This document shows positions 6,018 to 17,137 of a DNA stretch of 22,144 bases, piece after piece (positions within the stretch are counted from its first letter, which is position 1; each line of letters starts with the position of its first letter). Below the pieces are notes generated by a model that made no database searches, had not been told where the DNA came from, and saw nothing but the letters and a program-made list of their open reading frames with translations. A program made the position numbers and the translations under genes. This stretch comes from a virus: positions 1-22,144 of IMG/VR virus record IMGVR_UViG_3300048004_000010. The stretch is one strand, 5' to 3'.

Positions 6018-9000
6018 ATGACAAACACTAGAGATTTATTAAATAAAGATACATCACTAGGAGGTATCTCATATGGAAACATTGACTACAATGCTTCTAG
6101 AAAAAAATATAATTTATCTGATTTAAGAAAAAATGAAGAGTTTAATAAAACTACTGAAAGATTTTTAAAATCTATAGGTGAAGGAGATTCAGTATCAGAT
6201 TTATTTTCGTATTTTAGAGGTGCAGATTATAATTTAGCAGATGGATTATCAGTACTATCTCAAAGTAAAAAATTTACTGACCAACAAAAAAGAGACTATC
6301 AATATTTAAGAAGTAAATTTGATAATGCTGATATGGGTGGTTTTGGCGAATGGGTTAGTGGCATAAGTAGTATAGCAGGAGATGTTATAACTGACCCTAC
6401 AGTAATAGCAAGTATGTTATTTGTTCCTTGGACAGGAGGTGCATCAGCAGCAACAAGGTTAGCTGGTAGTAAAGCTGTTCAATTAGGATTAAAAAAGTTA
6501 ACTAATAAAGAAATAGCAGAAGCAACTGCTAAAGGCATATCTAAACTTCCCGGTCAAAAACTAAAAGAACCTTTAAGTAAAACAACTCAGACTGCTTTAG
6601 CGAGTACTGAGGGTTTTTTATATGGTAGTACTAATAATGCAACTACACAAAATATTGATATAAACACTGATAGAAGAAATAATTATAGTCTTGGTGAAAC
6701 ATTAGGTGCTGGTGCGATAGGTGCTGCTTTACCTGCAGTTATTAGAGGAGTGGGTATCGGAGCTTCTAAAGGTTATAATAAATTTAATGATTCTGTCCAA
6801 CAAAGACGAGCTAATCGTATTGATGGTGGTGAAGATTATAAAATGGGTATCTTCGATTATGGTGACGATGTTGTAGATTCTATTGCCGATTATGTTGTAC
6901 ATCCAATAAACAAACGTATAAGTGTTGTAACTAGAGAATTAATAGAAAAACCAACCTCTAGATTTATTGAAAAAATGAAACTTGACAAAGGTTTGGATGA
7001 CTTAATAAAAATTTTTAGATATGACACTGATAGAAGTATGTCGGCAGCAGGGTTTGATGCTAAAATGCCAGTATCAGAACGAAGTTATTATGAGTTAGTA
7101 AATAATGATATTGGTCTTAGAACTGAAAAACTGACAGCTTTCTTAGACCCACTATATAGAAAAGGAAAGATTGATAAACCTACAGTTGGTTCAAGAGATG
7201 CATTTTTTAAAGTACCCGGAAAAGTTAAAAAATATTTTGGTTACGAAGATTTAGAAAAAACTAAAAAAAGTTATGGCTCTTATCAAAGAATATCTAATGA
7301 AACAAATGATGCATTAGCTTATTATTTAAGAACTGGTAGAAAAACTATAAATGTAGATGGTAAACGGGTAAATATTGTTGATGCTTTTAAAGTTACTGAA
7401 AATACTTTAGATGAAATTATTACGGCTGGTAATGGTATTAGGTCTGTAATGACAGAAATAAGAAACGATGCAATTAGTAAAGGTTTAAAAATTGGAAAGA
7501 TAGACAAGTATTTACCTAGAGGTTGGCGATACAATAAAGTTCAAGATGAACTTGATAATTTTAAAAACAATGGAGTTGAAGGTGCACTAATAAAAGAATT
7601 AAAAGCTAAGTATCCTAAATTAGGTAAAACGGTTGATGGTACTACAAGTAAAGACCAAATAATTAATTTGTTAGAAGATTTAGTTGACCCCGCTTCTACT
7701 GCTAATCAATCTTTTCTTGAACTTGCAACTGTTGGTAAAGGTGAAGTAGGTGCAACATTAAAAAGAGCATTTTTTAAAAGTACTCCTGCTTTAACAAAAG
7801 AAAGAAAATTAAGTAAACTTAATGATGCAGTTATTTCTGATTATCTTGATGGTAGTGTAGAAAATTTATTGGCAAATTATGTACATCAATCTGCTGGTTT
7901 TATTAGAAGAAAACAATTATTTGGCGAAGATTTAGCTGAATTTAAAATGAGACATACAGACCCTATTAGAGAAAGATTAAATAAACTTGATAAAGATTTA
8001 ACTTCAAACGAGTTATCACAATTAGAAGATTTGTATTTAGTTACTACAGGTCAAATAAGTCGACCTAAAGGTGCGATAGGAACATTTTTTAATGATGTAG
8101 CTCTTGTTGGTAATCAATTAGCATTACTTCCACTTGCTACGGTTACAAGTTTGTCAGAAGTTGCAGTTCCTTTAGTTAGAGGTGCAGGTAAAAAAGGTTT
8201 TCAAAAAGGCACAACAGAGTCTGGTATAGACAAAGGAGGTGTAAGAATACTTTGGGAAACAGCTAATGACTATCGCAAGATGTGGTGGAATGATGTTTGG
8301 ACTAAAGAACTAAAAGATGCTAGACCTGAAGCAATGCGAGAACTAAATAGATTTAATAGAGCCGTAGGTGCAGCATCTGAAGATAGAGCTTTGGCAATGT
8401 TTGGTCAAGGTTTTAGTAGAAGAGCTACTCGTGCACAGAACACATTTTTTAAATATAATTTATTACATGACTGGACAAGATTTGTACAGCTAACTTCTTT
8501 TAATGTAGGTAAATCAAAAATATACGATAACCTATATGAATTAGCAACTGATAAAGTTATAGCAGGAAGTATTCGTTCTGCAAAAAAATTATCTCCTAAA
8601 CGAAAAATTAGATTAGAAAATGAGTTAAAAGAATTAGGAGTAGATGTCACTGCTGGTATTAAATGGGTTCAAGCTGGTGGAAAAAATACAAGTAAATTTT
8701 ATAACGAAAGTTTACTGCCTAGTGCAGCTAGATATGTAGACGAAGTTATTATGAACCCAACTGCTGCAGCTAATCAAAAACCGTTATGGCATTCAATGCC
8801 GGGAACTAGATGGGCTTTTGGTTTAATGGGTTTCCCTACTGCATTTGGTAATACAGTAATAAAAAATGCATTAAGAGAAGTTAATAAAGATGTAAGACAT
8901 AGAACTATAGGTAAGACTGGTCAGATGGGAGCAGGTGTTGTGACTATGGTAGGTATTGCAATGTTTGGTAATACACTTAGAAGTAGAGGAGGGAATTTAG

Positions 9001-10352
9001 AAAAAATAGAAGAAGGTGAATCTACTTTATTTGAGGAAATAAAAGATGCTGCTATGAGGACAGGTTTAGCTGGACCAACTGAATATGGTATTAGAATAAA
9101 AGAACAAAAACAATTTGATAACTTTATAAAAGCTACTGTTCAAAGATTGACTGGACCAGCAGTATCTGATTTAATGTTTATATTAGAAGATTGGAATGGA
9201 CCAGCATCTTTATTAATTAATAAAGTACCCGGTATTGCAGCTTTAAGGTCAACAAATCCAAAAGCATTTAAAGAATTACAAAAATTAGCTAGAGATGCAG
9301 ATAAATCTATGGGCTTTACTGCCTCTGGTAAGAAAAAAGAAGAACCCGAAATAATACCAAGACCTTTATTTACTGAAGGAGGTTTAGTAGAAGGAGTAGA
9401 AGACATACCTTTTACTAAAGAAAATCCAGCCGATAGAGTAAATCCTTACACTGGCGAACCTTATTCTGGTTTAGTATTAGAAGACTTTCCTTTATTAAAT
9501 AGACTACCGTTAAATGAAGGCGGTTTAGCTGACGAAGAAAAAGCTAGACTAGATTCTGAAATAGAAAGAAGGGGAGGTGTTAGAAGTGGGTCATTACAAT
9601 CTAGTGCACCTGTTATTGAATTATTAGTAGGTGGAAATACTGTTAAAGTAATTGCAGGTCTTGGTAAATCAGGTTATAATTTCATAAAGAATTTAGGCGA
9701 AAGCTCTATTAAAAAAATTAAACCTACCGACTATTATCACGGCAGTCCTTTAAAATTAAAAGAAATATCATCTGATGTTGATAGAGGTGTAGGAGGAGCA
9801 GTTCAAGCAGGAAGTTATATAGCTAAACCTACTGACGAAGGGCTTACTACAGCTACTATGTATGGGCTAATAGGTTCTAAAGGAAGTTCGTCAGGATTTG
9901 TAAACTTAGTAGATAATGCAGTATTCAAGAAAGCTGTTAAAAAAATATACAATCCTGCTAAACCTACTAAAGAAATGTCAGATGCTATAAAGAAAGAAAT
10001 AGTAACTAGACAAAAACTTATTGACTTTGCAAAAAAAACTAACGATAATAAAAACATGAACAAGTTCAGAACTGAGCTGCTTGATTTTCAAACACTATTA
10101 AAACCTCGTCATAATTATTTAAGTGTAACCACAGATACACATAGAAAATTTTTAAAATCCAGAGGCTATGATGCTATTGATATAAGCGAAGACGTAGTAA
10201 GTGTTTTTGATAAATTACCAGTTAGAGAAGCAGTTAAAGGAAAGTTTGCAAAAAGATTGGTAGAAAGAAATTTTGAAAAAGCTAGACTAGAACAAAGAAA
10301 AAAAGCTAATAAAGACTTTTTAAAAAAACTTGACGATGCTATAGAAGAATGA
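6018..10352 (+). CDS. large internal virion (DNA-ejection) protein with C-terminal ART-like domain
   Basis: This 1444-aa protein is similar in length and position to T7 gp16 (about 1300 aa) but shows no N-terminal lytic transglycosylase motif. Hydrophobic, glycine-rich segments that could span membrane lie at about residues 122-148, 225-247, 690-722 and 970-985. Residues about 912-955 (starting MNPTAAANQKPLWHSMPG) match a block I associate with large podoviral ejection proteins. Two (T/N)EGGL motifs at 1119-1123 and 1166-1170 flank a spacer containing NPADRVNPYTGEPYSG. Residues about 1238-1400 resemble an ADP-ribosyltransferase fold of the H-Y-E type: YYHGSP with H1241, a SYIAKP strand with Y1267, and GYDAIDISEDVVSVFD near 1383-1398. 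The start has no clear Shine-Dalgarno. The end overlaps the next start by ATGA. Ejection-protein assignment is fairly safe; the ART reading is tentative. Confidence 0.75.
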   Translation: MTNTRDLLNKDTSLGGISYGNIDYNASRKKYNLSDLRKNEEFNKTTERFLKSIGEGDSVSDLFSYFRGADYNLADGLSVLSQSKKFTDQQKRDYQYLRSKFDNADMGGFGEWVSGISSIAGDVITDPTVIASMLFVPWTGGASAATRLAGSKAVQLGLKKLTNKEIAEATAKGISKLPGQKLKEPLSKTTQTALASTEGFLYGSTNNATTQNIDINTDRRNNYSLGETLGAGAIGAALPAVIRGVGIGASKGYNKFNDSVQQRRANRIDGGEDYKMGIFDYGDDVVDSIADYVVHPINKRISVVTRELIEKPTSRFIEKMKLDKGLDDLIKIFRYDTDRSMSAAGFDAKMPVSERSYYELVNNDIGLRTEKLTAFLDPLYRKGKIDKPTVGSRDAFFKVPGKVKKYFGYEDLEKTKKSYGSYQRISNETNDALAYYLRTGRKTINVDGKRVNIVDAFKVTENTLDEIITAGNGIRSVMTEIRNDAISKGLKIGKIDKYLPRGWRYNKVQDELDNFKNNGVEGALIKELKAKYPKLGKTVDGTTSKDQIINLLEDLVDPASTANQSFLELATVGKGEVGATLKRAFFKSTPALTKERKLSKLNDAVISDYLDGSVENLLANYVHQSAGFIRRKQLFGEDLAEFKMRHTDPIRERLNKLDKDLTSNELSQLEDLYLVTTGQISRPKGAIGTFFNDVALVGNQLALLPLATVTSLSEVAVPLVRGAGKKGFQKGTTESGIDKGGVRILWETANDYRKMWWNDVWTKELKDARPEAMRELNRFNRAVGAASEDRALAMFGQGFSRRATRAQNTFFKYNLLHDWTRFVQLTSFNVGKSKIYDNLYELATDKVIAGSIRSAKKLSPKRKIRLENELKELGVDVTAGIKWVQAGGKNTSKFYNESLLPSAARYVDEVIMNPTAAANQKPLWHSMPGTRWAFGLMGFPTAFGNTVIKNALREVNKDVRHRTIGKTGQMGAGVVTMVGIAMFGNTLRSRGGNLEKIEEGESTLFEEIKDAAMRTGLAGPTEYGIRIKEQKQFDNFIKATVQRLTGPAVSDLMFILEDWNGPASLLINKVPGIAALRSTNPKAFKELQKLARDADKSMGFTASGKKKEEPEIIPRPLFTEGGLVEGVEDIPFTKENPADRVNPYTGEPYSGLVLEDFPLLNRLPLNEGGLADEEKARLDSEIERRGGVRSGSLQSSAPVIELLVGGNTVKVIAGLGKSGYNFIKNLGESSIKKIKPTDYYHGSPLKLKEISSDVDRGVGGAVQAGSYIAKPTDEGLTTATMYGLIGSKGSSSGFVNLVDNAVFKKAVKKIYNPAKPTKEMSDAIKKEIVTRQKLIDFAKKTNDNKNMNKFRTELLDFQTLLKPRHNYLSVTTDTHRKFLKSRGYDAIDISEDVVSVFDKLPVREAVKGKFAKRLVERNFEKARLEQRKKANKDFLKKLDDAIEE

Positions 10353-11551
10353 AAACTGATTTACAAATGGAAAGATTAGGCTTTAAGAAAGGAGGCTACA
10401 CTATTAAGAAAGGCGATACTTTATCAGAGTTAGCCGTGAGATTTGATACTAGCGTTAAAGAATTATTAAAGGCTAATAAAAAAATAAAAGACCCTGATTT
10501 AATTTTTGCTGGTGCTAAACTAAACATACCTGAAAAAGTTGTAAAGTCAGAAATAAAAGAACGTATAACAATGCCTCCTCCTGTACCTAGGGAAGAAATA
10601 AAAGTAGTACCTTTAGAAGAACTAAAAATAAAACCTAGGAAACGTGTAGAAATGCCTACACCTATAAATAGAAATGATGACTCTATTCCTATGCCTACAC
10701 CTATAAATAGAAATGACGACTCTATTACTGTGCCTACACCTATAAATAGAAATGATGACTCTATTCCTATGCCTAGTTTAGGTGCACCTCCTATGTCTGA
10801 TGCTGAAAAAAAGTTTGTTAAAGCTGGAGAAATACCACAAGAAGATTTAAAAAAATTAAAAGAGATAAAAAAAACTTACAGAAATAGAGGTCAAGAAGCT
10901 GAAGCTATACACAAAGATGATGAAGAATTTTATACTGGAATTTTACCTTTAGCAGCAAGACAACTAGCTTCAGATACTAAATATGATTTTCTTAGAAATA
11001 TTTTTACTAAAGATAGGGCAGATAAATTAACACAAAGTTTTTTTGGTGAAGAAGAAAATATAACTAAAAAAGATTTCAGTGAAGAAGAGTTTACACTTTT
11101 AAAAAATATAGTAATGAGAAATATTTCTCAAGATAAATTTGTTGTTGATTATGATGATTGGAGAGATTTTGGTGCAGGAGGAACTTCCACTGTAAGAGAT
11201 AATCCATTTGAACTTATAAACAACCCTGCACGTTCTTTACAATATACTTTTGGACAAGGAAGTATAGCGGTTGAAGACAACGGAGATATTTATTTTAGAG
11301 ACCAGTTTAATTTTAATGATGCTAAATTATCTAATAATCCAAGGCAATATTATGGACCTGAGTGGGATGAAGATGGATATTTAAAAATGGAATATACCAG
11401 AGGGCTAAAAGGATTTTTAAGTAATCAATTTAAAAAGATACGAAACTACAAAACCAGAGTAGGTAGAGGAGAAGGAGAAGGTGCTAAAACTAATATTCTT
11501 CTCGGTAATATAAACGATTTAAAATCTAAAAAATTAATTGCATCCAAATAA
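10349..11551 (+). CDS. LysM-domain virion-associated protein
   Basis: In this 400-aa protein a LysM domain occupies about residues 16-62 (YTIKKGDTLSELAVRF, then LLKANKKIKDPDLIFAGAKLNIP). LysM domains bind N-acetylglucosamine-containing glycans, chiefly peptidoglycan. The extreme N-terminus carries ERLGFKKGG, related to the (E/K)GG motifs of neighbouring proteins. A Pro/Thr/Asp linker with three 13-residue repeats follows at about 102-140. The remaining 230 residues end in a segment of about residues 280-335 (for example PARSLQYTFGQGSIAVEDNG then DIYFRDQFNFND) that looks like a small beta-rich domain but is unassigned. The start overlaps the preceding stop as ATGA, which suggests translational coupling with the ejection protein. 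A cell-wall-engaging virion component or lysis accessory fits best; no hydrolase active site was seen. Confidence 0.75.
   Translation: MKTDLQMERLGFKKGGYTIKKGDTLSELAVRFDTSVKELLKANKKIKDPDLIFAGAKLNIPEKVVKSEIKERITMPPPVPREEIKVVPLEELKIKPRKRVEMPTPINRNDDSIPMPTPINRNDDSITVPTPINRNDDSIPMPSLGAPPMSDAEKKFVKAGEIPQEDLKKLKEIKKTYRNRGQEAEAIHKDDEEFYTGILPLAARQLASDTKYDFLRNIFTKDRADKLTQSFFGEEENITKKDFSEEEFTLLKNIVMRNISQDKFVVDYDDWRDFGAGGTSTVRDNPFELINNPARSLQYTFGQGSIAVEDNGDIYFRDQFNFNDAKLSNNPRQYYGPEWDEDGYLKMEYTRGLKGFLSNQFKKIRNYKTRVGRGEGEGAKTNILLGNINDLKSKKLIASK
10652..10768 (+). repeat. three tandem 39-bp repeats (13-aa unit) in the LysM gene
   Basis: Three in-frame, head-to-tail copies encode (M/V)PTPINRNDDSI(P/T), starting at 10652, 10691 and 10730. 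They are nearly identical at DNA level, differing at only a few positions, which implies recent expansion by slippage or recombination. A fourth partial copy (MPS) follows. The unit probably acts as a flexible spacer between the LysM domain and the C-terminal region. Confidence 0.9.
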
Positions 11552-11916
11552 TGTATAAATACTTTACAGAAGATGAACTTAAATGCAAACACACTGGTCT
11601 ATGTGATATGGACTGGGCATTTATGCAGACAGTTGAAAGGATTAGAGAACGTTGTGGTTTCCCTTTCAAAGTAAGCAGTGCTTATCGTTCTCCAGAACAC
11701 CCCATAGAAGCTAAAAAGAGCTCTCCCGGAGCTCATTCTTCTGGTAAGGCTATGGATATACTAGTCAACGGAGAACAAGCCATGACACTCGTTAAAATAG
11801 CTCTGGAAGAGGGTATTAATAGGATAGGAGTTGCACAAAAAGGAGACCATGCTTCAAGATTTATTCATATAGATATGGATAACTCACGAGCCACTCCTCG
11901 TATTTGGAGCTACTAA
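11551..11916 (+). CDS. M15-family peptidase, probable endolysin
   Basis: This 121-aa single-domain zinc peptidase belongs to the M15 (DUF882/VanY-like) group, which cleaves D-Ala-containing peptide crosslinks of peptidoglycan. The signature is AHSSGKAMDI with H62 and D69 as metal ligands and FIHIDMD with H106 as the third ligand. SSAYRSPEHP at about 42-51 is the usual upstream substrate-binding block. The length fits small phage M15 enzymes. There is no signal peptide, so export would depend on the holin encoded about 600 bases downstream. The start overlaps the LysM stop (TAATG at 11549-11553). A virion-attached depolymerase is an alternative, but the adjacent holin favours the lysis role. 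Confidence 0.88.
   Translation: MYKYFTEDELKCKHTGLCDMDWAFMQTVERIRERCGFPFKVSSAYRSPEHPIEAKKSSPGAHSSGKAMDILVNGEQAMTLVKIALEEGINRIGVAQKGDHASRFIHIDMDNSRATPRIWSY
11906..11909 (+). promoter_or_regulatory. ribosome binding site fixing the start of the 84-aa gene
   Basis: GGAG lies six bases before the ATG at 11916. A TTG at 11904 in the same frame is upstream but overlaps this site, so the ATG is preferred. Confidence 0.6.
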
Positions 11917-12170
11917 TGTTGATATTATACAGAGAAAGAGATTTAGACGAAGCATATAGAATAGATTGTAAAGCTAGAACCAAAGGTGACGAGCCTTGGA
12001 TAAGGCGAGAAGACTTTAGAAACATCTATGAAGCTTTACTAGATACATACTTTACAAATTCTGTAGAAAAAAAACTAGAGAGAAAAGAACAAGACGTTGC
12101 TGAATATGTTATTGAGCAAGTTAATAAAGCTCTAGAAAGAACTATAGACTTTGACCCTGAAATAAAATAA
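11916..12170 (+). CDS. hypothetical protein in the lysis cassette
   Basis: This 84-aa soluble, highly charged, helical protein starts MLILYRERDLDEAYRI and ends in an acidic segment (TIDFDPEIK). The ATG overlaps the peptidase stop by one base (TAATG) and is preceded by GGAG. No membrane segment, cysteine motif or known domain was seen. Small terminase subunits of T7-like phages are about this size and lie near lysis genes, but I see no sequence resemblance to T7 gp18 and do not make that call. Its position between endolysin and MscS-like protein implies late co-expression. Confidence 0.65.
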   Translation: MLILYRERDLDEAYRIDCKARTKGDEPWIRREDFRNIYEALLDTYFTNSVEKKLERKEQDVAEYVIEQVNKALERTIDFDPEIK

Positions 12171-12171
12171 T

Positions 12172-12531
12172 ATGGACTTAGAACAATACTATGTCGAGGC
12201 TATCGGCTTTATAATAACTTTGCTAACTGGTCTAGCTGTGAAAGACTGGTCTATGTCTTTTGTAAAAGGTGCTTCCTTTAGACTTAGCAACTCTTTTAAA
12301 GAAGGAGACAAAGTTATTCTCGATGGACAAGTAGCAATGATAATTAAAATAGGGTTTACCCAGACTGTATTCGGGGTATACTCAGATGATGGATATACAT
12401 GGAGGTATATTCCCAATCAAAAAATAGATTCTATAAAACTTGAAAAAGTTGTAGACCAAGATTTACATGCTGACTCAGCTATGGAGAAAGCAGAAAAACT
12501 TAGAAAAATATTGGAGGCAAAAGATGTTTGA
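12172..12531 (+). CDS. miniature MscS-like membrane protein
   Basis: This 119-aa protein matches only the pore-helix and beta-domain core of the small-conductance mechanosensitive channel family. Residues about 8-35 form a hydrophobic to amphipathic helix (IGFIITLLTGLAVKDW) corresponding to MscS TM3. Residues 43-85 carry FKEGDKVILDGQVAMIIKIG, then the T/DG and YIPNQKI signatures of the beta domain; MscS reads FRAGEYVDLGGVAGTV and IPNGKI at the equivalent places. TM1, TM2 and the C-terminal cage domain (E. coli MscS is 286 aa) are missing, and the protein ends in a short charged helix. It lies between endolysin and holin genes, so a role in membrane permeability or lysis timing is plausible. 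Family resemblance is clear by eye; function is inference. Confidence 0.7.
   Translation: MDLEQYYVEAIGFIITLLTGLAVKDWSMSFVKGASFRLSNSFKEGDKVILDGQVAMIIKIGFTQTVFGVYSDDGYTWRYIPNQKIDSIKLEKVVDQDLHADSAMEKAEKLRKILEAKDV
12513..12517 (+). promoter_or_regulatory. strong ribosome binding site of the holin gene
   Basis: GGAGG sits six bases before the ATG at 12524. This selects that start over an in-frame upstream codon at 12467, which would add 19 residues lacking any such site. Confidence 0.8.
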
Positions 12532-12886
12532 AACATTAATAAAACCAGTGAGTAATTTAGTTGGTAAGCTAGTAAAAGATAAAGACTTACAAGCCCAACT
12601 TGACCACGAACTAAAAACACTATTTCATCAGGCTAATCTAGCACAGGTAGAAATAAATAAACTTGAAGCTAAAGGTAATTGGTTTCAATCTTCATGGCGA
12701 CCACTAACAGGTTATGTTTGTGTTGCCGGATTAGCTATTAACTTTTTAATCTCACCAATAGCAAAAGGTTTTGGTATAGATATACCACAAGCTGATGCTA
12801 GTGTAATGATGCCACTTCTAACCGGCATGTTAGGAATTGCAGGAATGAGAAGCTATGACAAGCTAAAACAAACAGATTCAAAATAA
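12524..12886 (+). CDS. 3-TM holin (gene-transfer-agent holin type)
   Basis: This 120-aa protein resembles the 'holin of 3TMs, for gene-transfer release' family, which permeabilises the inner membrane so that the endolysin can reach the wall. Key features are an N-terminal helical domain of about 50 residues and the signature WFQSSWRPLTGYVCVAGL at about 53-70. A first hydrophobic segment at 62-78 and a second at about 92-107 (MMPLLTGMLGIAGM) follow, with a charged C-terminus (RSYDKLKQTDSK). Only two clear hydrophobic stretches are obvious to me; a third may come from the amphipathic region between. The start was chosen by its GGAGG, and it overlaps the MscS-like gene by eight bases. The family is frequent in alphaproteobacteria and their phages, which supports the inferred host group. 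Confidence 0.85.
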   Translation: MFETLIKPVSNLVGKLVKDKDLQAQLDHELKTLFHQANLAQVEINKLEAKGNWFQSSWRPLTGYVCVAGLAINFLISPIAKGFGIDIPQADASVMMPLLTGMLGIAGMRSYDKLKQTDSK

Positions 12887-12920
12887 TTTTAACCAATGCT
12901 TATGGAGGTAAAAAAAGCTA

Positions 12921-13013
12921 GTGAAAAATGGCAATGGCGAGGATTTCTGTGTCCTCTGTATCCTGTTCTGGATAACAATGACAGTAATGTATGCTTCAAT
13001 TACAGCACTATAA
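12921..13013 (+). CDS. possible 30-aa membrane peptide with CxxC
   Basis: A GTG-initiated frame encodes a 30-residue peptide: eight polar residues, then FCVLCILFWITMTVMYASIT, a single hydrophobic segment long enough to span a membrane. GGAGG at 12904-12908 precedes it with a long 12-base spacing. It fills most of the gap after the holin and stops three bases before the end of the opposing arm. A second overlapping frame from ATG 12902 encodes 41 mostly polar residues without a Shine-Dalgarno; I think it less likely. Tiny hydrophobic phage peptides often act in lysis or superinfection control, but nothing here proves translation. The rest of the inter-arm gap (12887-12920) shows nothing further. 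Confidence 0.4.
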   Translation: MKNGNGEDFCVLCILFWITMTVMYASITAL

Positions 13014-13016
13014 GAA

Positions 13017-13238
13017 CTACTTTATAAAATCTAGTTCACTCTGAAAATAATTATGTAAGGTGGAAAATTTCTTTTTTCCTGCCTGTAGGATAGTCTTAAC
13101 TATTTCATTCTCGTCTCTAGTTTTAAATACCTTATCTACTTCTTCTACCGGTAGCATACTTAACTCCGTAACAATATCGTTGTTAGCAGTAAGCACTACT
13201 TTAAAACTTATTATATTAGCTTCTTTCTTCTTCGCCAT
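13017..13238 (-). CDS. hypothetical 73-aa protein after nrdB
   Basis: This 73-aa protein is the last gene of the right arm. It starts MAKKKEANIISFKVVLTAN, behind a strong GGAGGAGA (complement of 13242-13249), and overlaps the nrdB end by 23 bases, so it is translated in tandem with it. The sequence is mixed alpha/beta with many Lys, Glu and Asp residues and no cysteine or membrane motif. No family was recognised. Co-transcription with ribonucleotide reductase is clear, but a role in that pathway is not shown. Confidence 0.7.
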   Translation of the reverse strand: MAKKKEANIISFKVVLTANNDIVTELSMLPVEEVDKVFKTRDENEIVKTILQAGKKKFSTLHNYFQSELDFIK

Positions 13239-14214
13239 TATTCTCCTCCATGGATGCGAAAGTTATCTGGTCTTGTCTTCCTCTTAATCCTGCCTTCATG
13301 TATGAAGTAGCACGACCCTCAAAAAAGTTTTGATGTTCAACTCCCATAACTTCATCTAACCAACCTAACGGATTCTCCCTCTGGTCAAAGTTTGTTTTGA
13401 GTCCTAGTTGTAGCAGTCTTCTATCTGCTATATATCTATTATAGGCATACATATCTTTCTTAGTTAATCCTTGTATGTCTCCCATATCAAACACTAAGTC
13501 TAAGAATTTATCTTCAAGTTCTACCATGTGTCTACATATATCGTATAATTCTTTTTTAAACTTGTCAGTCCATATTTCTATGTTCTCTTGAATAAACTCT
13601 CTAAAAAGTTTTGTCATGGCTTCAACATGCATTGACTCATCTCTAATAGAATAGGTAACTATCTGACCCATACCTTTCATTCTACCGAACCTTGGAAAGT
13701 TTAACAAGATTGCAAAGCTACTGAACAGTTGTAGTCCTTCAGTAAAAGCTGAGTACACTGCTAAAGTTTTTGCAATACTTTCTTTATCTCTTTTAGTTGT
13801 TTTCAAATTACTAATGTACTCGTGTTTGTTAGACATCTCTTCGTATTCGGAAAAAGCTTTGTACTCTATCTCAGGCATACCGACAGTATCTAACAATAAA
13901 CTATAAGCATGTTGGTGTATAGACTCCATGTTAGCAAATGAACCCATCATCATTCTTGCTTCTGGTTTTTTAAATATTCTCATGTATCTATCTATATAAC
14001 CAGAACCAACATCTACATCGGACTGTGTAAACAACCTGAATATTTGTGTTAATAAGTTCTTTTCAGTATTAGATAACTCTTGCCAATCTTTAACATCTGT
14101 ATGTAAAGGTACAGACTCCGGCATCCAATGCATTTGATTTTGTAATACATAGTAATCAAACATCCATGGGTTATCAAATGGTTTGTAGTAATCTCTTGTT
14201 CCTAATAAGCTCAT
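13216..14214 (-). CDS. nrdB: class I ribonucleotide reductase, beta (radical) subunit
   Basis: This 332-aa protein holds the dinuclear metal/tyrosyl radical cofactor that starts ribonucleotide reduction to dNTP precursors in the alpha subunit. All expected residues are visible. D66 (QSDVD) is the likely first ligand. E97 and H100 lie in MESIHQHAY with Y104 as the radical tyrosine, and E159 is in TEGLQLFSSF. E193 and H196 lie in RDESMHVEAM. Y305 in ATSYMKAG corresponds to the C-terminal electron-relay tyrosine (E. coli Y356). This indicates a tyrosyl-radical class Ia-type enzyme rather than the tyrosine-less Ic type. AGGAGG precedes the ATG by eight bases, and the start overlaps the stop of the preceding gene (TAATG). 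Four genes separate it from nrdA, an unusual split. Confidence 0.95.
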   Translation of the reverse strand: MSLLGTRDYYKPFDNPWMFDYYVLQNQMHWMPESVPLHTDVKDWQELSNTEKNLLTQIFRLFTQSDVDVGSGYIDRYMRIFKKPEARMMMGSFANMESIHQHAYSLLLDTVGMPEIEYKAFSEYEEMSNKHEYISNLKTTKRDKESIAKTLAVYSAFTEGLQLFSSFAILLNFPRFGRMKGMGQIVTYSIRDESMHVEAMTKLFREFIQENIEIWTDKFKKELYDICRHMVELEDKFLDLVFDMGDIQGLTKKDMYAYNRYIADRRLLQLGLKTNFDQRENPLGWLDEVMGVEHQNFFEGRATSYMKAGLRGRQDQITFASMEENNGEEERS

Positions 14215-14423
14215 TAAAAATCCTCCTGTAATATTTCTAATTTTTCTGAAGCACTCGAATATTTTTTTATAAGTTTATCCATAGACTCGACAACATTAGG
14301 GTGGTCTGCTACGGCTACTTTGTGTTCAAAAAATACTTCAAGGTTAGCTTTAGCTTCTGCTTTTTCTGCTTTGTATTTTGTTTCTAGAGCTTTATACAAT
14401 AGTGCTCCTGAATATTTAGTCAT
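14214..14423 (-). CDS. helical 69-aa protein next to nrdB, conserved in marine phages
   Basis: This protein is almost entirely helical: ALLYKALETKYKAEKAEAKA at about residues 7-26, a short HPNVVESMDKL turn-helix at 41-51, and a final helix ending LEILQEDF. GGAG is 10 bases before the ATG. The reading frame overlaps the zinc-ribbon gene by eight bases and abuts nrdB by a TAATG overlap. From memory, similar short proteins with a YKALE..AEAKA helix followed by HPxxVExxDKL occur in other marine phages, but I know of no assigned function. An accessory to nucleotide metabolism is possible only by location. Confidence 0.65.
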   Translation of the reverse strand: MTKYSGALLYKALETKYKAEKAEAKANLEVFFEHKVAVADHPNVVESMDKLIKKYSSASEKLEILQEDF

Positions 14424-14574
14424 AATAATTTTCTCCTCTAGGTAAATAAACTACAACAAAAGCTCTACAATTAGGACAGCTTAAATTTGTTTCCATTGTA
14501 AACTCTTCGTTTTCTTCTTCAATATCGTGGTCTCCACCCCAAATTAATTCTGTATTACAGTGCCAACATTTCAT
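14416..14574 (-). CDS. zinc-ribbon protein
   Basis: This 52-aa protein has two CxxC pairs: CWHC at residues 3-6 and CPNC at 33-36. Between them lies an acidic loop (DHDIEEENEEFTMETN). Four cysteines in two knuckles 26 residues apart are the classic zinc ribbon, used for nucleic acid or protein contacts. The start is set by a perfect AAGGAGGT seven bases upstream; an in-frame codon 14 residues earlier lacks a comparable site. Despite the redox-like spacing of the first CxxC, the paired second CxxC argues against a glutaredoxin donor for the reductase. It lies 13 bases after the TM-protein gene and overlaps the next gene by eight bases. The specific role is unknown. Confidence 0.75.
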   Translation of the reverse strand: MKCWHCNTELIWGGDHDIEEENEEFTMETNLSCPNCRAFVVVYLPRGENYYD

Positions 14575-14581
14575 AATAATT

Positions 14582-14589
14582 ACCTCCTT
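14582..14589 (-). promoter_or_regulatory. consensus ribosome binding site of the zinc-ribbon gene
   Basis: The complement reads AAGGAGGT, seven bases before the ATG at 14574. It is the best Shine-Dalgarno in the window and decides the shorter start. Confidence 0.8.
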
Positions 14590-14812
14590 ATGGTTTAAGA
14601 AATTCTGGTTTGTCAAAAAAAATTAGCATTGTAATGAAAGGTAACAATCCTATACCAATTACAAAAATAGACGGTATTATTACTGCCCAGAGTAAAGGCT
14701 TTTCTGCCATGAAGTCTAAGTCTTTATTATTCATACCTTTCTTTTTATCTTCTTCAGTGTACTCTGGATAAGATAAAGAATCTTCAAATCTCTTAACATG
14801 TCTTGGTTTCAT
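14588..14812 (-). CDS. single-TM protein translationally coupled to the cytochrome c
   Basis: In this 74-aa protein residues 1-35 are charged (MKPRHVKRFEDSLSYPEYTE then DKKKGMNNKDLDF). Residues about 41-67 form one TM helix with internal prolines (PLLWAVIIPSIFVIGIGL then LPFITMLIFF), followed by a short DKPEFLKP tail. The positive-inside rule predicts N-terminus in the cytoplasm and the tail in the periplasm, the same orientation as the cytochrome anchor. Its ATG overlaps the cytochrome stop as ATGA, the only ATGA junction on this arm, which implies coupled synthesis. Small single-TM subunits with this outline occur in respiratory oxidases, but I see no diagnostic similarity to CcoQ, CoxD or any named subunit. 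A membrane partner or assembly factor for the cytochrome is an inference from coupling. Confidence 0.7.
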   Translation of the reverse strand: MKPRHVKRFEDSLSYPEYTEEDKKKGMNNKDLDFMAEKPLLWAVIIPSIFVIGIGLLPFITMLIFFDKPEFLKP

Positions 14813-15240
14813 AAAGTATCAATGTAAGCTTGTAAATTTTTCATATCTTCAGAAGATAAGTTAGCAGCTTGACCCCACATAAGAGCAGACTGTGCACCTC
14901 TAGTTTCTCCGTTTTTATATTGCATTAACATTTTTACAATAGACGTACTGCCAGATAGTTTCGGTCCAATACCTCCTTCTCCTTTCATGCCGTGACACAT
15001 ATTACAGTTAACATATATCTTAGCACCTTTATCAGCAGGTGTTTCTGTTTGCATTGCAACTCTTTTTGCTTCTAGTTGTTCTGTAAATGTACCATACTTT
15101 ACAGTATATTCTTTGTAACATTCACCTCCACAACCATGTACGTCTCCGTACCCAGACACTTCTGCATTTATGATAGTTGTATAGAGTATTCCACCAATAC
15201 CTAGTATACTAACTATTAACATTGCTATACTGTGTTTCAT
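14809..15240 (-). CDS. membrane-anchored c-type cytochrome
   Basis: This 143-aa protein has a hydrophobic signal-anchor at residues about 5-25 (SIAMLIVSILGIGGILY), which sends the rest to the periplasm. The cytochrome c domain spans about 70-143: GAKIYVNCNMCHGMKGEGGI carries the heme motif C79-N-M-C82-H83. A GPKL turn follows at 92-95, and the C-terminal helix (LSSEDMKNLQAYI) lies downstream of M121, the likely distal heme ligand. This is the pattern of small class I cytochromes such as c553/c5, which shuttle electrons between respiratory complexes. The host's own heme-attachment system would be needed. An extra CGGEC at 37-41 lies between anchor and heme domain. The ATG follows the nrdA stop by one base and has GAGGG upstream; a GTG four codons earlier is less likely. 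Heme binding is close to certain by motif; the electron partner is unknown. Confidence 0.9.
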   Translation of the reverse strand: MKHSIAMLIVSILGIGGILYTTIINAEVSGYGDVHGCGGECYKEYTVKYGTFTEQLEAKRVAMQTETPADKGAKIYVNCNMCHGMKGEGGIGPKLSGSTSIVKMLMQYKNGETRGAQSALMWGQAANLSSEDMKNLQAYIDTL

Positions 15241-15241
15241 A

Positions 15242-17137
15242 TTATCCCTCACAAGCTATACATTCCACATCATCTAGCTTTATTCGTGGAACTTTTATAT
15301 TAACATTCTCTGCTGCTCTAGCTGCATCAGACCTAAAATAATAAAGTGATTTTAAATTATGCATACCGTACCAGTGAACATCATTTACATATTGCATATA
15401 TGTATCGTGAGCATCTTGTTCTTCAGTGGCTTTCGGTAACACAAAAAATAAATTTATTGACTGACTCTGACAAAGAAACTCTTGTCTTTTATGGGCATGT
15501 TCAATAATCCATATTTGATTTATCTCATTTGCAGTTTTAAATAATTCTTTTTCAGTATCGTCTAACATAGACAGATGTTGTATTGAACCGTTTTTACCGG
15601 CAATGTCTTTCCAAACGTTGTCAAGTTCTTCTCCTTTCAATCCTTTACTTCTTAAAACTTTTTCTAAGTATTTATTTTTTACTTGATAAGAACCTGATAA
15701 AGTTTTATGAGTAAAGACGTTTGCTCGATAAGGTTCTACTGAGGGAGACGTACCAGCACATATAATACTACTACTAGCGTTAGGAGCAACGGCAAGGAGA
15801 TTAGCATTACGCATCCCAGAACCAGATACATCAGGTGCTTCACCACGAATATCAGCCAGTTCCTCACTAGCTTTCGTAGCTTTCTTTTTAATATGTTTAA
15901 ACGCTTGATAGTTGAATCCCGTAGCTTGGATTCCTTCAAAAGGAATTCCGTTTGATTGTAGATAGGCATGAAAACCCATCGCACCCAATCCCAAAGAACG
16001 TTCTCTGTAAGCTGAGTAAGCAGCTTTTGTAAAGCCTTCTTTACCTTCTTTGACATATCCTTTAAATCTTTTAAAGTTTGCATTATATTCTCCCAGTTGT
16101 GATGTGTCAATAGCATTCTCAATAAAATGTTGTAGAACATTATCTAACATAGTTATTAAATCTTTTATAAAGTAATCGTCTTTAGACCATTCATCATAAT
16201 GCTCTAAGTTAACACTAGACAAACAACATACTGCTGTTCTTTCTTCGTTAGTAGGTAAAGTTATTTCTGAACATAGGTTACTTTGTTTTATTTCTAAACC
16301 TAAATCTTTTTGTCCTTGAGGTAAAGCATCGTTACAGTTGTCTATGTTTATCATGTAAGGCTCTCCTGTTTCTGCTCTTGCATAGATAATCTGCCACCAT
16401 AACTCTCTAGCATTTATAGTTTTAACAGCTTCATTTGTTTTAGGGTCTATCAATCTCCAATCTAAATCGTCTCTTACAGCTTTTAAAAAATCATTAGTAA
16501 TGTTAATACCGTTGTGTAAGTTTAAACACTTTCTATTTATATCGCCACCAGATTCTTTCCTCATGTTAATGAACTCTTCAATCTCTGGATGAGATATATC
16601 CATGTAAGCAGCATAGCTACCTCTTCTAGTAACACCTTGATTAAAGGCTAACATCTGAGAATCAACTACGTGAATGAAAGGAATAGAACCAGTAGAACGA
16701 CTGCCTGAAGAAGTAGAAATACCATTACTCCTAATGTCTCCCCAATATCCACCAATGCCTCCACCTGAACTAGCCAACCATATGTTTTCATCATAGTGAG
16801 CAGATAGACCATCCCTACTATCAGGTACATAATTGAGGAAACAGCTAATAGGAAGCCCACGAGTTGTACCCCCGTTACTAAGTATAGGAGTGCTAAACAT
16901 GAACCAACAATCGGAACTGTAGTTGTAAAGTCTTTGAGCCATTTCATAATCCGTAACACCCTTGAAGGTGGCAGCAAATACTGCAGCCCTTGCGAAAGCT
17001 TCTTGTGCATGTGTTTCTTCCTCCCAGAAATATCTATCTCTTAATGTATCTAAACTAAACTTGTCTAGCTTTTTTTCTTTATCGTAATTTATCTCAATAC
17101 CTAAATAAGGTTTGTGTCCTACTTTATCTTCTACCAT
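15242..17137 (-). CDS. nrdA: class I ribonucleotide reductase, alpha (catalytic) subunit
   Basis: This 631-aa protein reduces ribonucleoside diphosphates to deoxy forms together with the beta subunit. Active-site residues are present: C99 in LPISCFLNY, the N287-L-C289-S-E291 triad, C304/C305 in TAVCCLSSVNL, the radical-relay tyrosines Y599-Y600 in LKSLYYFRS, and a C-terminal pair C626-I-A-C629 that passes electrons from thioredoxin or glutaredoxin. The protein is over 100 residues shorter than E. coli NrdA (761 aa). The missing part is the N-terminal ATP-cone, so the overall on/off control by dATP is probably absent, a common state for phage enzymes. The start lies five bases after the DUF3310 stop and lacks a good Shine-Dalgarno. 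No thioredoxin or glutaredoxin gene is in the window. Confidence 0.96.
   Translation of the reverse strand: MVEDKVGHKPYLGIEINYDKEKKLDKFSLDTLRDRYFWEEETHAQEAFARAAVFAATFKGVTDYEMAQRLYNYSSDCWFMFSTPILSNGGTTRGLPISCFLNYVPDSRDGLSAHYDENIWLASSGGGIGGYWGDIRSNGISTSSGSRSTGSIPFIHVVDSQMLAFNQGVTRRGSYAAYMDISHPEIEEFINMRKESGGDINRKCLNLHNGINITNDFLKAVRDDLDWRLIDPKTNEAVKTINARELWWQIIYARAETGEPYMINIDNCNDALPQGQKDLGLEIKQSNLCSEITLPTNEERTAVCCLSSVNLEHYDEWSKDDYFIKDLITMLDNVLQHFIENAIDTSQLGEYNANFKRFKGYVKEGKEGFTKAAYSAYRERSLGLGAMGFHAYLQSNGIPFEGIQATGFNYQAFKHIKKKATKASEELADIRGEAPDVSGSGMRNANLLAVAPNASSSIICAGTSPSVEPYRANVFTHKTLSGSYQVKNKYLEKVLRSKGLKGEELDNVWKDIAGKNGSIQHLSMLDDTEKELFKTANEINQIWIIEHAHKRQEFLCQSQSINLFFVLPKATEEQDAHDTYMQYVNDVHWYGMHNLKSLYYFRSDAARAAENVNIKVPRIKLDDVECIACEG
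15246..15250 (-). promoter_or_regulatory. ribosome binding site choosing the cytochrome start
   Basis: The complement reads GAGGG, five bases before the ATG at 15240. An in-frame GTG at 15252 overlaps this site and has no Shine-Dalgarno of its own, so MKHSIAML is taken as the N-terminus. Confidence 0.65.

Follow-up and report, generated by a model that had tools for sequence, protein, structure and literature searches.

The probable ejection protein gene and its neighbours

The window, by which we mean the whole 22,144-nucleotide stretch of viral DNA analysed here (IMG/VR record IMGVR_UViG_3300048004_000010), carries a long gene whose 1444-residue product is, to judge from its sequence, a probable large podoviral ejection protein. 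A LysM protein gene and an endolysin gene follow directly:

6018..10352, + strand: gene for the large ejection-type protein, 1444 aa (ORF; similarity to PaP3 orf19 and Slicky01; phrog_7348, 8e-46)
7365..9320, + strand: conserved backbone core, PaP3/LUZ24-like, residues 450-1101 (alignment A2 and 80 viral loci retrieved with it)
10349..11551, + strand: LysM protein gene (PF01476, 1.1e-14; BLASTP against locus L019, 4e-19)
11551..11916, + strand: M15 peptidase (endolysin) gene (PF08291, 1.3e-10)

Residues ~471-1074 of the ejection protein resemble orf19, a virion structural protein of Pseudomonas phage PaP3, and also a protein of Pseudoalteromonas phage Slicky01; both of these proteins stop shortly past the matching region. 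Because of the homology with a PaP3 virion structural protein and the place of the gene ahead of the endolysin gene, we infer that virions contain the protein and eject it. Phage ejection proteins are usually viewed as DNA conduits and peptidoglycan hydrolases.

The start of the LysM gene overlaps the stop of the ejection gene (ATGA). The LysM domain is fused in frame to the ejection protein in loci L019 and L020; in the window it is encoded by a separate, overlapping gene. A three-TM holin of the gene-transfer-agent type (12467-12886; PF11351, 4.4e-16) adjoins the M15 endolysin. Further downstream, between the two ribonucleotide reductase genes of the phage, lies a c-type cytochrome gene with a CNMCH motif (14809-15252, - strand; PF00034, 1.3e-7, above cut-off), which is unusual for a phage. 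The nearest relatives of the window DNA polymerase are those of Pelagibacter phages (52%); judged from that gene alone, the host would be marine and possibly SAR11.

A linker marks the junction between core and cargo

The region past the conserved core contains the following features:

9369..9467, + strand: core/cargo junction linker, residues 1118-1150, FTEGGLVEG...PADRVNPYTGEPYS (found in ejection-type ORFs of >100 viral contigs)
9525..10349, + strand: cargo insertion relative to L019, residues 1170-1444 (collinearity with L019)
9606..9716, + strand: hydrophobic lead-in APVIELLVGG..., residues 1197-1233 (kept in all close cassette homologues)
9717..10229, + strand: ART-PolyVal-like domain, residues ~1234-1404 (profiles; alignment-based AlphaFold model; Foldseek BFVD and VIA matches)
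9732-9749: YYHGSP, residues 1239-1244
9738..9740, + strand: H1241, predicted strand 1 (the same in every cassette homologue; all 20 ORFs of the cargo cluster have H)
9810-9830: GSYIAKP, residues 1265-1271
9816..9818, + strand: Y1267, predicted strand 2 (kept by all close homologues; in the wider cargo cluster 10 ORFs have Y and 10 have F)
9852-9866: ATMYG, residues 1279-1283
10164-10211: GYDAID...SEDVVSVFD (GYDAIDISEDVVSVFD), residues 1383-1398
10191..10196, + strand: D1392-V1393, putative third residue of the active site (all close homologues keep D1392; register uncertain by one residue)

A sequence-only reading of this DNA had placed an H-Y-E class ADP-ribosyltransferase (ART) domain at the C-terminus of the ejection protein, with a domain boundary near an EGG-flanked spacer. 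The ORF translation puts the motifs where that reading had them, with H1241 and Y1267 correctly numbered, and the C-terminal location holds, the protein itself being a probable ejection protein. EGG-flanked spacers occur at residues 1118-1126 and 1166-1174, and the boundary is real: residues 1170-1444 form an insertion relative to L019. Residues 29-1169 of the window protein align with residues 27-1120 of L019, and the LysM ORF aligns with L019 from residue 1110 on. Since the flanks are collinear through residue 1169 and collinearity resumes in the LysM ORF, the 275-residue ART block is an insertion between the linker and LysM.

The linker consensus, GG..V...R(V/I)(D/N)PxTGxPY, marks the core/cargo junction in many marine ejection-type proteins (L011-L090, L241-L357). 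Where the cargo precedes the linker or is missing, the linker stands at the C-terminus; in L048 it is near the N-terminus of a separate ORF. The linker is conserved and connects the body of the ejection protein with exchangeable cargo.

Profile evidence for an ART relationship

Residues ~1234-1404 are almost certainly an ART-superfamily domain, which standard searches miss. The C-terminal 233 residues of the ejection protein have no match in Pfam or NCBIfam, and a PDB-sequence search with them gave nothing useful. The ART-PolyVal model PF18760 does not match the window protein or the domain at its curated cut-off, and the close cassette homologues match none of the Pfam ART models, PF18760 included. 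Searching phage records by tblastn with the domain yielded nothing at E<=0.1 and chance matches only at E<=10. The single match in genome contigs (L010) was fortuitous, lying inside a Mur-ligase-like ORF.

Relatives were collected with a degenerate DNA motif, YHG[ST]P-x-GxYx-x-A..Y[AG], which found at least ~119 viral stretches; 118 of those listed are in frame inside ORFs. (A stricter motif, non-F after Y plus AxP as in YIAKP, gave chance matches, mostly outside ORFs.) All 21 other domains in the resulting alignment A5 match PF18760. A profile of these 21 domains, built without the window sequence, was run against 5,000 shuffles and the window sequence; it aligns with the whole window domain at 31.4 bits (E 6.8e-8 in that set), the best shuffle reaching 12.5 bits. 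Here, as in most of the profile controls, there is the caveat that window-derived motifs had served to find the 21 domains. The same profile places the window protein at the top of the 3,975 ORFs taken from related loci. Comparison of the window domain with the 21 domains by hhalign gave 79%, shuffles giving <1% and other segments of the ejection protein, none of them spanning the full domain, <=11%.

Two controls bear on the motif bias, both with smaller margins than the 21-domain profile. In the first, 10 domains without the main window-derived motif made up the profile, and the window domain still came first, if narrowly (15.2 vs 13.0 bits). The second profile was limited to the C-terminal halves, on which the motif selection had no influence; with it the window domain came 2nd of 5,001. 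When the alignment of cassette homologues was compared with the 21 ART-PolyVal domains, the hhalign probability was 95.2% with a score of 55.3, the highest score among 40 column-shuffled controls being 20.8. The profile check that the sequence-only reading had proposed thus finds the domain homologous to PF18760-positive domains, and the claimed ART-superfamily relationship stands, both kinds of profile comparison scoring well beyond the shuffles. As there is no match to the PF18760 model at its curated cut-off, we call the domain a divergent relative of ART-PolyVal rather than a member; the nearest described group is H-Y-D (ART-PolyVal/Tox-ART-HYD2).

Predicted structure

A single-sequence AlphaFold model of the domain was uninformative (pLDDT 37). 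With alignment A5 as input the model reached pLDDT 70.6 and pTM 0.63, and its strands (10-14, containing H; 37-40, containing Y; 65-69; 157-159; 164-167; 171-178) follow the ART strand order; strands 3 and 4 are separated by a long, helical insert of ~80 residues. The model is consistent with an ART fold but is no independent proof of one because the input alignment consisted of ART domains. Foldseek against BFVD ranked an ART-PolyVal protein first (3.2e-4) and placed several more in the top 11. The best VIA match was Tpt1/KptA (Z 7.6 over 83 residues), followed by PARP10 (Z 6.7 over 111 residues), with PARP12 and tankyrase below; Z values <8 are middling, and several helical proteins score alike, but over the helical insert only. 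Foldseek against the PDB gave nothing significant and no ART chain among the matches listed. The comparison with ART folds that had been proposed came out in part: the alignment-based model fits and its best viral matches are ART-PolyVal proteins, while the single-sequence model and the PDB comparison lent no support.

The predicted active site

Ordinary scans for relatives of the domain returned near-identical copies only. True cassette homologues were retrieved by scanning with the junction linker, and alignment A6 extended the set to five, L360-L363 (43-48% identical) and L364 (39%). H1241, Y1267, D1385, D1388, S1390 and D1392 are invariant in these five homologues (39-48% identical). Loss of H1241 and Y1267 among homologues was the result that the sequence-only reading had named as telling against it; both residues are kept in all five. 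In a wider cargo cluster of 20 ORFs, H is present in 20/20, the second position is Y in 10 and F in 10, and the third column holds N, D, T, H or G.

The assignment to the H-Y-E class did not survive. The third position in the window is D1392 or V1393 and not glutamate, and neither E nor Q occurs there in the close homologues. Nor is the domain of the R-S-E kind (Alt/VIP2 ARTs), its strand-1 position being an invariant H, not R. D1392 adjoins strand 5 of the model, and the register between D1392 and V1393 is ambiguous by one residue. The predicted active site is therefore H-Y-D (through D1392) or H-Y-hydrophobic (through V1393), not H-Y-E. The ART-PolyVal family has been described as H-Y-D (Iyer et al. 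2017, PMC5512222), and among the 49 ART-PolyVal-type domains gathered in this analysis the column that corresponds to the glutamate holds N in 21, E in 11, H in 6 and V in 4. PARPs of the H-Y-hydrophobic type are active mono-ARTs through substrate-assisted catalysis, and some PARPs with altered triads (Q-Y-T, Y-Y-V) are inactive (PMC9189837).

Cargo diversity and exchange between backbones

Relatives with the PaP3-like backbone have highly varied tails, extending 16 to 1,349 aa beyond the conserved core. Cargo types on related backbones include tail lysozyme, glucosaminidase, LysM, phage lysozyme, SLOG and other ART-type domains, and simple clustering separates 14 cargo clusters behind the linker. 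ART-type domains other than that of the window are carried independently by related ejection proteins (L035, L038, L048, L062, L081; also L262, L248, L254, L277). L058 and L061 have further distinct ART-PolyVal-like C-terminal domains besides those of L035, L038, L062 and L081; the L048 example is the separate linker-bearing ORF. One ejection-type protein has a SLOG-family domain as its cargo (YAcAr, PF10686, 1.8e-17; seen in the alignment A3 tails, L037/L045 group by sequence). SLOG and ART are both components of nucleotide-signal conflict systems.

The linker+ART cassette occurs on three backbones: the PaP3-like one (window, L362), that of L360/L361 and that of L363/L364. L360 is 99.5% identical to the window over 11547-15815 (4,269 bp) and 72% identical over 9378-10226, the linker and ART region; between 4266 and 9378 it has no similarity to the window ejection backbone. 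The L362 and L363 cassettes are 75% identical despite bodies without detectable similarity. An M15 endolysin gene directly follows the cassette in L360-L363 and, at the contig end, in L364. Outside the cassette the three backbones give no BLASTP match to each other at E<=1e-4, and hhalign between them gives a probability of ~1%. Calling the backbones unrelated refers to these direct BLASTP and hhalign comparisons; a coarser single-linkage clustering joined two of the three through other sequences, and very distant homology among them is possible. Exchange of the cassette among ejection bodies is well supported by these sequence comparisons.

A possible but doubtful extension of this picture is that the linker defines, for marine podoviral ejection proteins in general, a slot in which cargo can be exchanged. 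The linker would then work as a delivery or processing tag for effectors (ART families, SLOG, lysozymes, LysM, unknown domains) that sit on unrelated bodies and are released into the host. If it is such a tag, the loading and release of effectors by short-tailed phages becomes testable. The linker is in any case a useful sequence handle: scanning with it retrieved new cargo types as well as ART homologues that ordinary searches missed. That ART cargo missed by Pfam is present on three backbones without detectable similarity suggests that podoviral ARTs are undercounted, and that early host takeover can be delivered by a swappable C-terminal module.

Proposed role and alternative explanations

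The explanation that we favour, and hold with reasonable confidence, is that a divergent ART domain rides as C-terminal cargo behind the linker of a podoviral ejection protein and acts on the host early. The ejection protein would be packaged in the virion and would leave it with the genome, and its C-terminal part would reach the host cytoplasm; delivery of the ART domain with the phage DNA is likely on the homologies set out above. There the domain would bind NAD+ through H1241 and Y1267 and mono-ADP-ribosylate a host macromolecule at the very start of infection, the transition state being stabilised by D1392 or by an acid of the substrate as in the H-Y-hydrophobic PARPs. Immediate mono-ADP-ribosylation of a host macromolecule is the most likely role by analogy with T4 Alt, as regards route only, and from what Iyer et al. 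proposed for ART-PolyVal. We lean toward the domain being catalytically active; the chances that it acts on a host protein are about even.

Could the domain be an ART-fold pseudoenzyme that has kept the fold, lost catalysis and become a binding or structural module, for example one that binds NAD or ADP-ribose, or plugs or anchors the ejection complex? An acidic third residue is not assured, the third column is variable, 10/20 cluster members have F for Y, and the inactive altered-triad PARPs (Q-Y-T, Y-Y-V) provide a precedent (PMC9189837). The third column varies, however, in the 49 ART-PolyVal-type domains counted above as well, and the H found in 20/20 cluster members together with the Y invariant in all close homologues is what a retained NAD site would be expected to give. 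We consider this explanation unlikely. Less likely still is an active ART-superfamily enzyme with a non-protein substrate, be it RNA or DNA (KptA/Tpt1-like, DarT-like) or NAD itself, the enzyme then being an NADase directed, for example, against NAD-based host defence. The top VIA match, Tpt1/KptA at Z 7.6, fits such an enzyme, and viral NADases and KptA-type ARTs have been described (PMC9503650); but the Tpt1/KptA and PARP10 Z values differ by <1 and are both middling, and the nearest sequence relatives are the ART-PolyVal domains, which are predicted protein modifiers (PMC5512222).

That the region is no ART at all but an unrelated structural tail with chance motifs is strongly disfavoured and very improbable. 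The missing Pfam match, the uninformative single-sequence model and the chance matches of the stricter YIAxP motif would agree with it. Against it stand the wide margins over shuffled controls in the profile and profile-profile comparisons, the independent signal from the C-terminal half, the invariance of H and Y in homologues, and best structural matches that are viral ART-PolyVal proteins.

Comparison with known systems

The closest parallel to the favoured early-acting ART cargo is ART-PolyVal (PMC5512222), with which the window domain shares, in the same order, an HG(S/T) strand 1 with the H, a GxY strand 2, an A..Y helix, GYD(G/A)I and the hydrophobic-F(D) strands, and likewise a place towards the C-terminal end of a phage protein that is very large and of virion type. 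Unlike ART-PolyVal, it is missed by the Pfam model, has a helical insert of ~80 residues between strands 3 and 4, and has D or V as its third residue; the linker that joins it is not described in the literature consulted. Virion-borne ART-PolyVal fusions are already known (PMC5512222, PMC9503650). Among them, the fusions of ART to N4-like virion RNA polymerase, as in Roseovarius Plymouth podovirus 1 (PMC5512222), also join an ART to a giant injected podoviral protein and are predicted to act on the host immediately; the window backbone, in contrast, is PaP3/LUZ24-like, no RNA polymerase match was found in it, and the cassette moves between backbones.

The likeness to T4 Alt is confined to the proposed route and timing, a virion-packaged ART that enters with the DNA; Alt belongs to the Alt/VIP2 clade of R-S-E ARTs (PMC5512222), and we claim no homology. 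PARP10 and PARP12, mono-ARTs of the H-Y-hydrophobic kind, share the H and Y, possibly the hydrophobic third residue, and a weak structural match; they are, however, eukaryotic, and the window domain does not belong with them at the sequence level and may have D1392 in the third position. Mosaicism of ejection proteins is likewise known, and the swapping of enzymatic domains between podoviral proteins such as T7 gp16 and K1-5 gp35 (PMC8954989) resembles what we describe. In that swap the activity concerned is lysozyme, whereas here unrelated bodies carry an ART that follows a recurrent linker at the C-terminal end. What is new, as far as our searches and the literature consulted show, is a divergent family of ARTs that Pfam does not recognise, its form as a linker-bounded cassette, and the movement of that cassette among ejection bodies.
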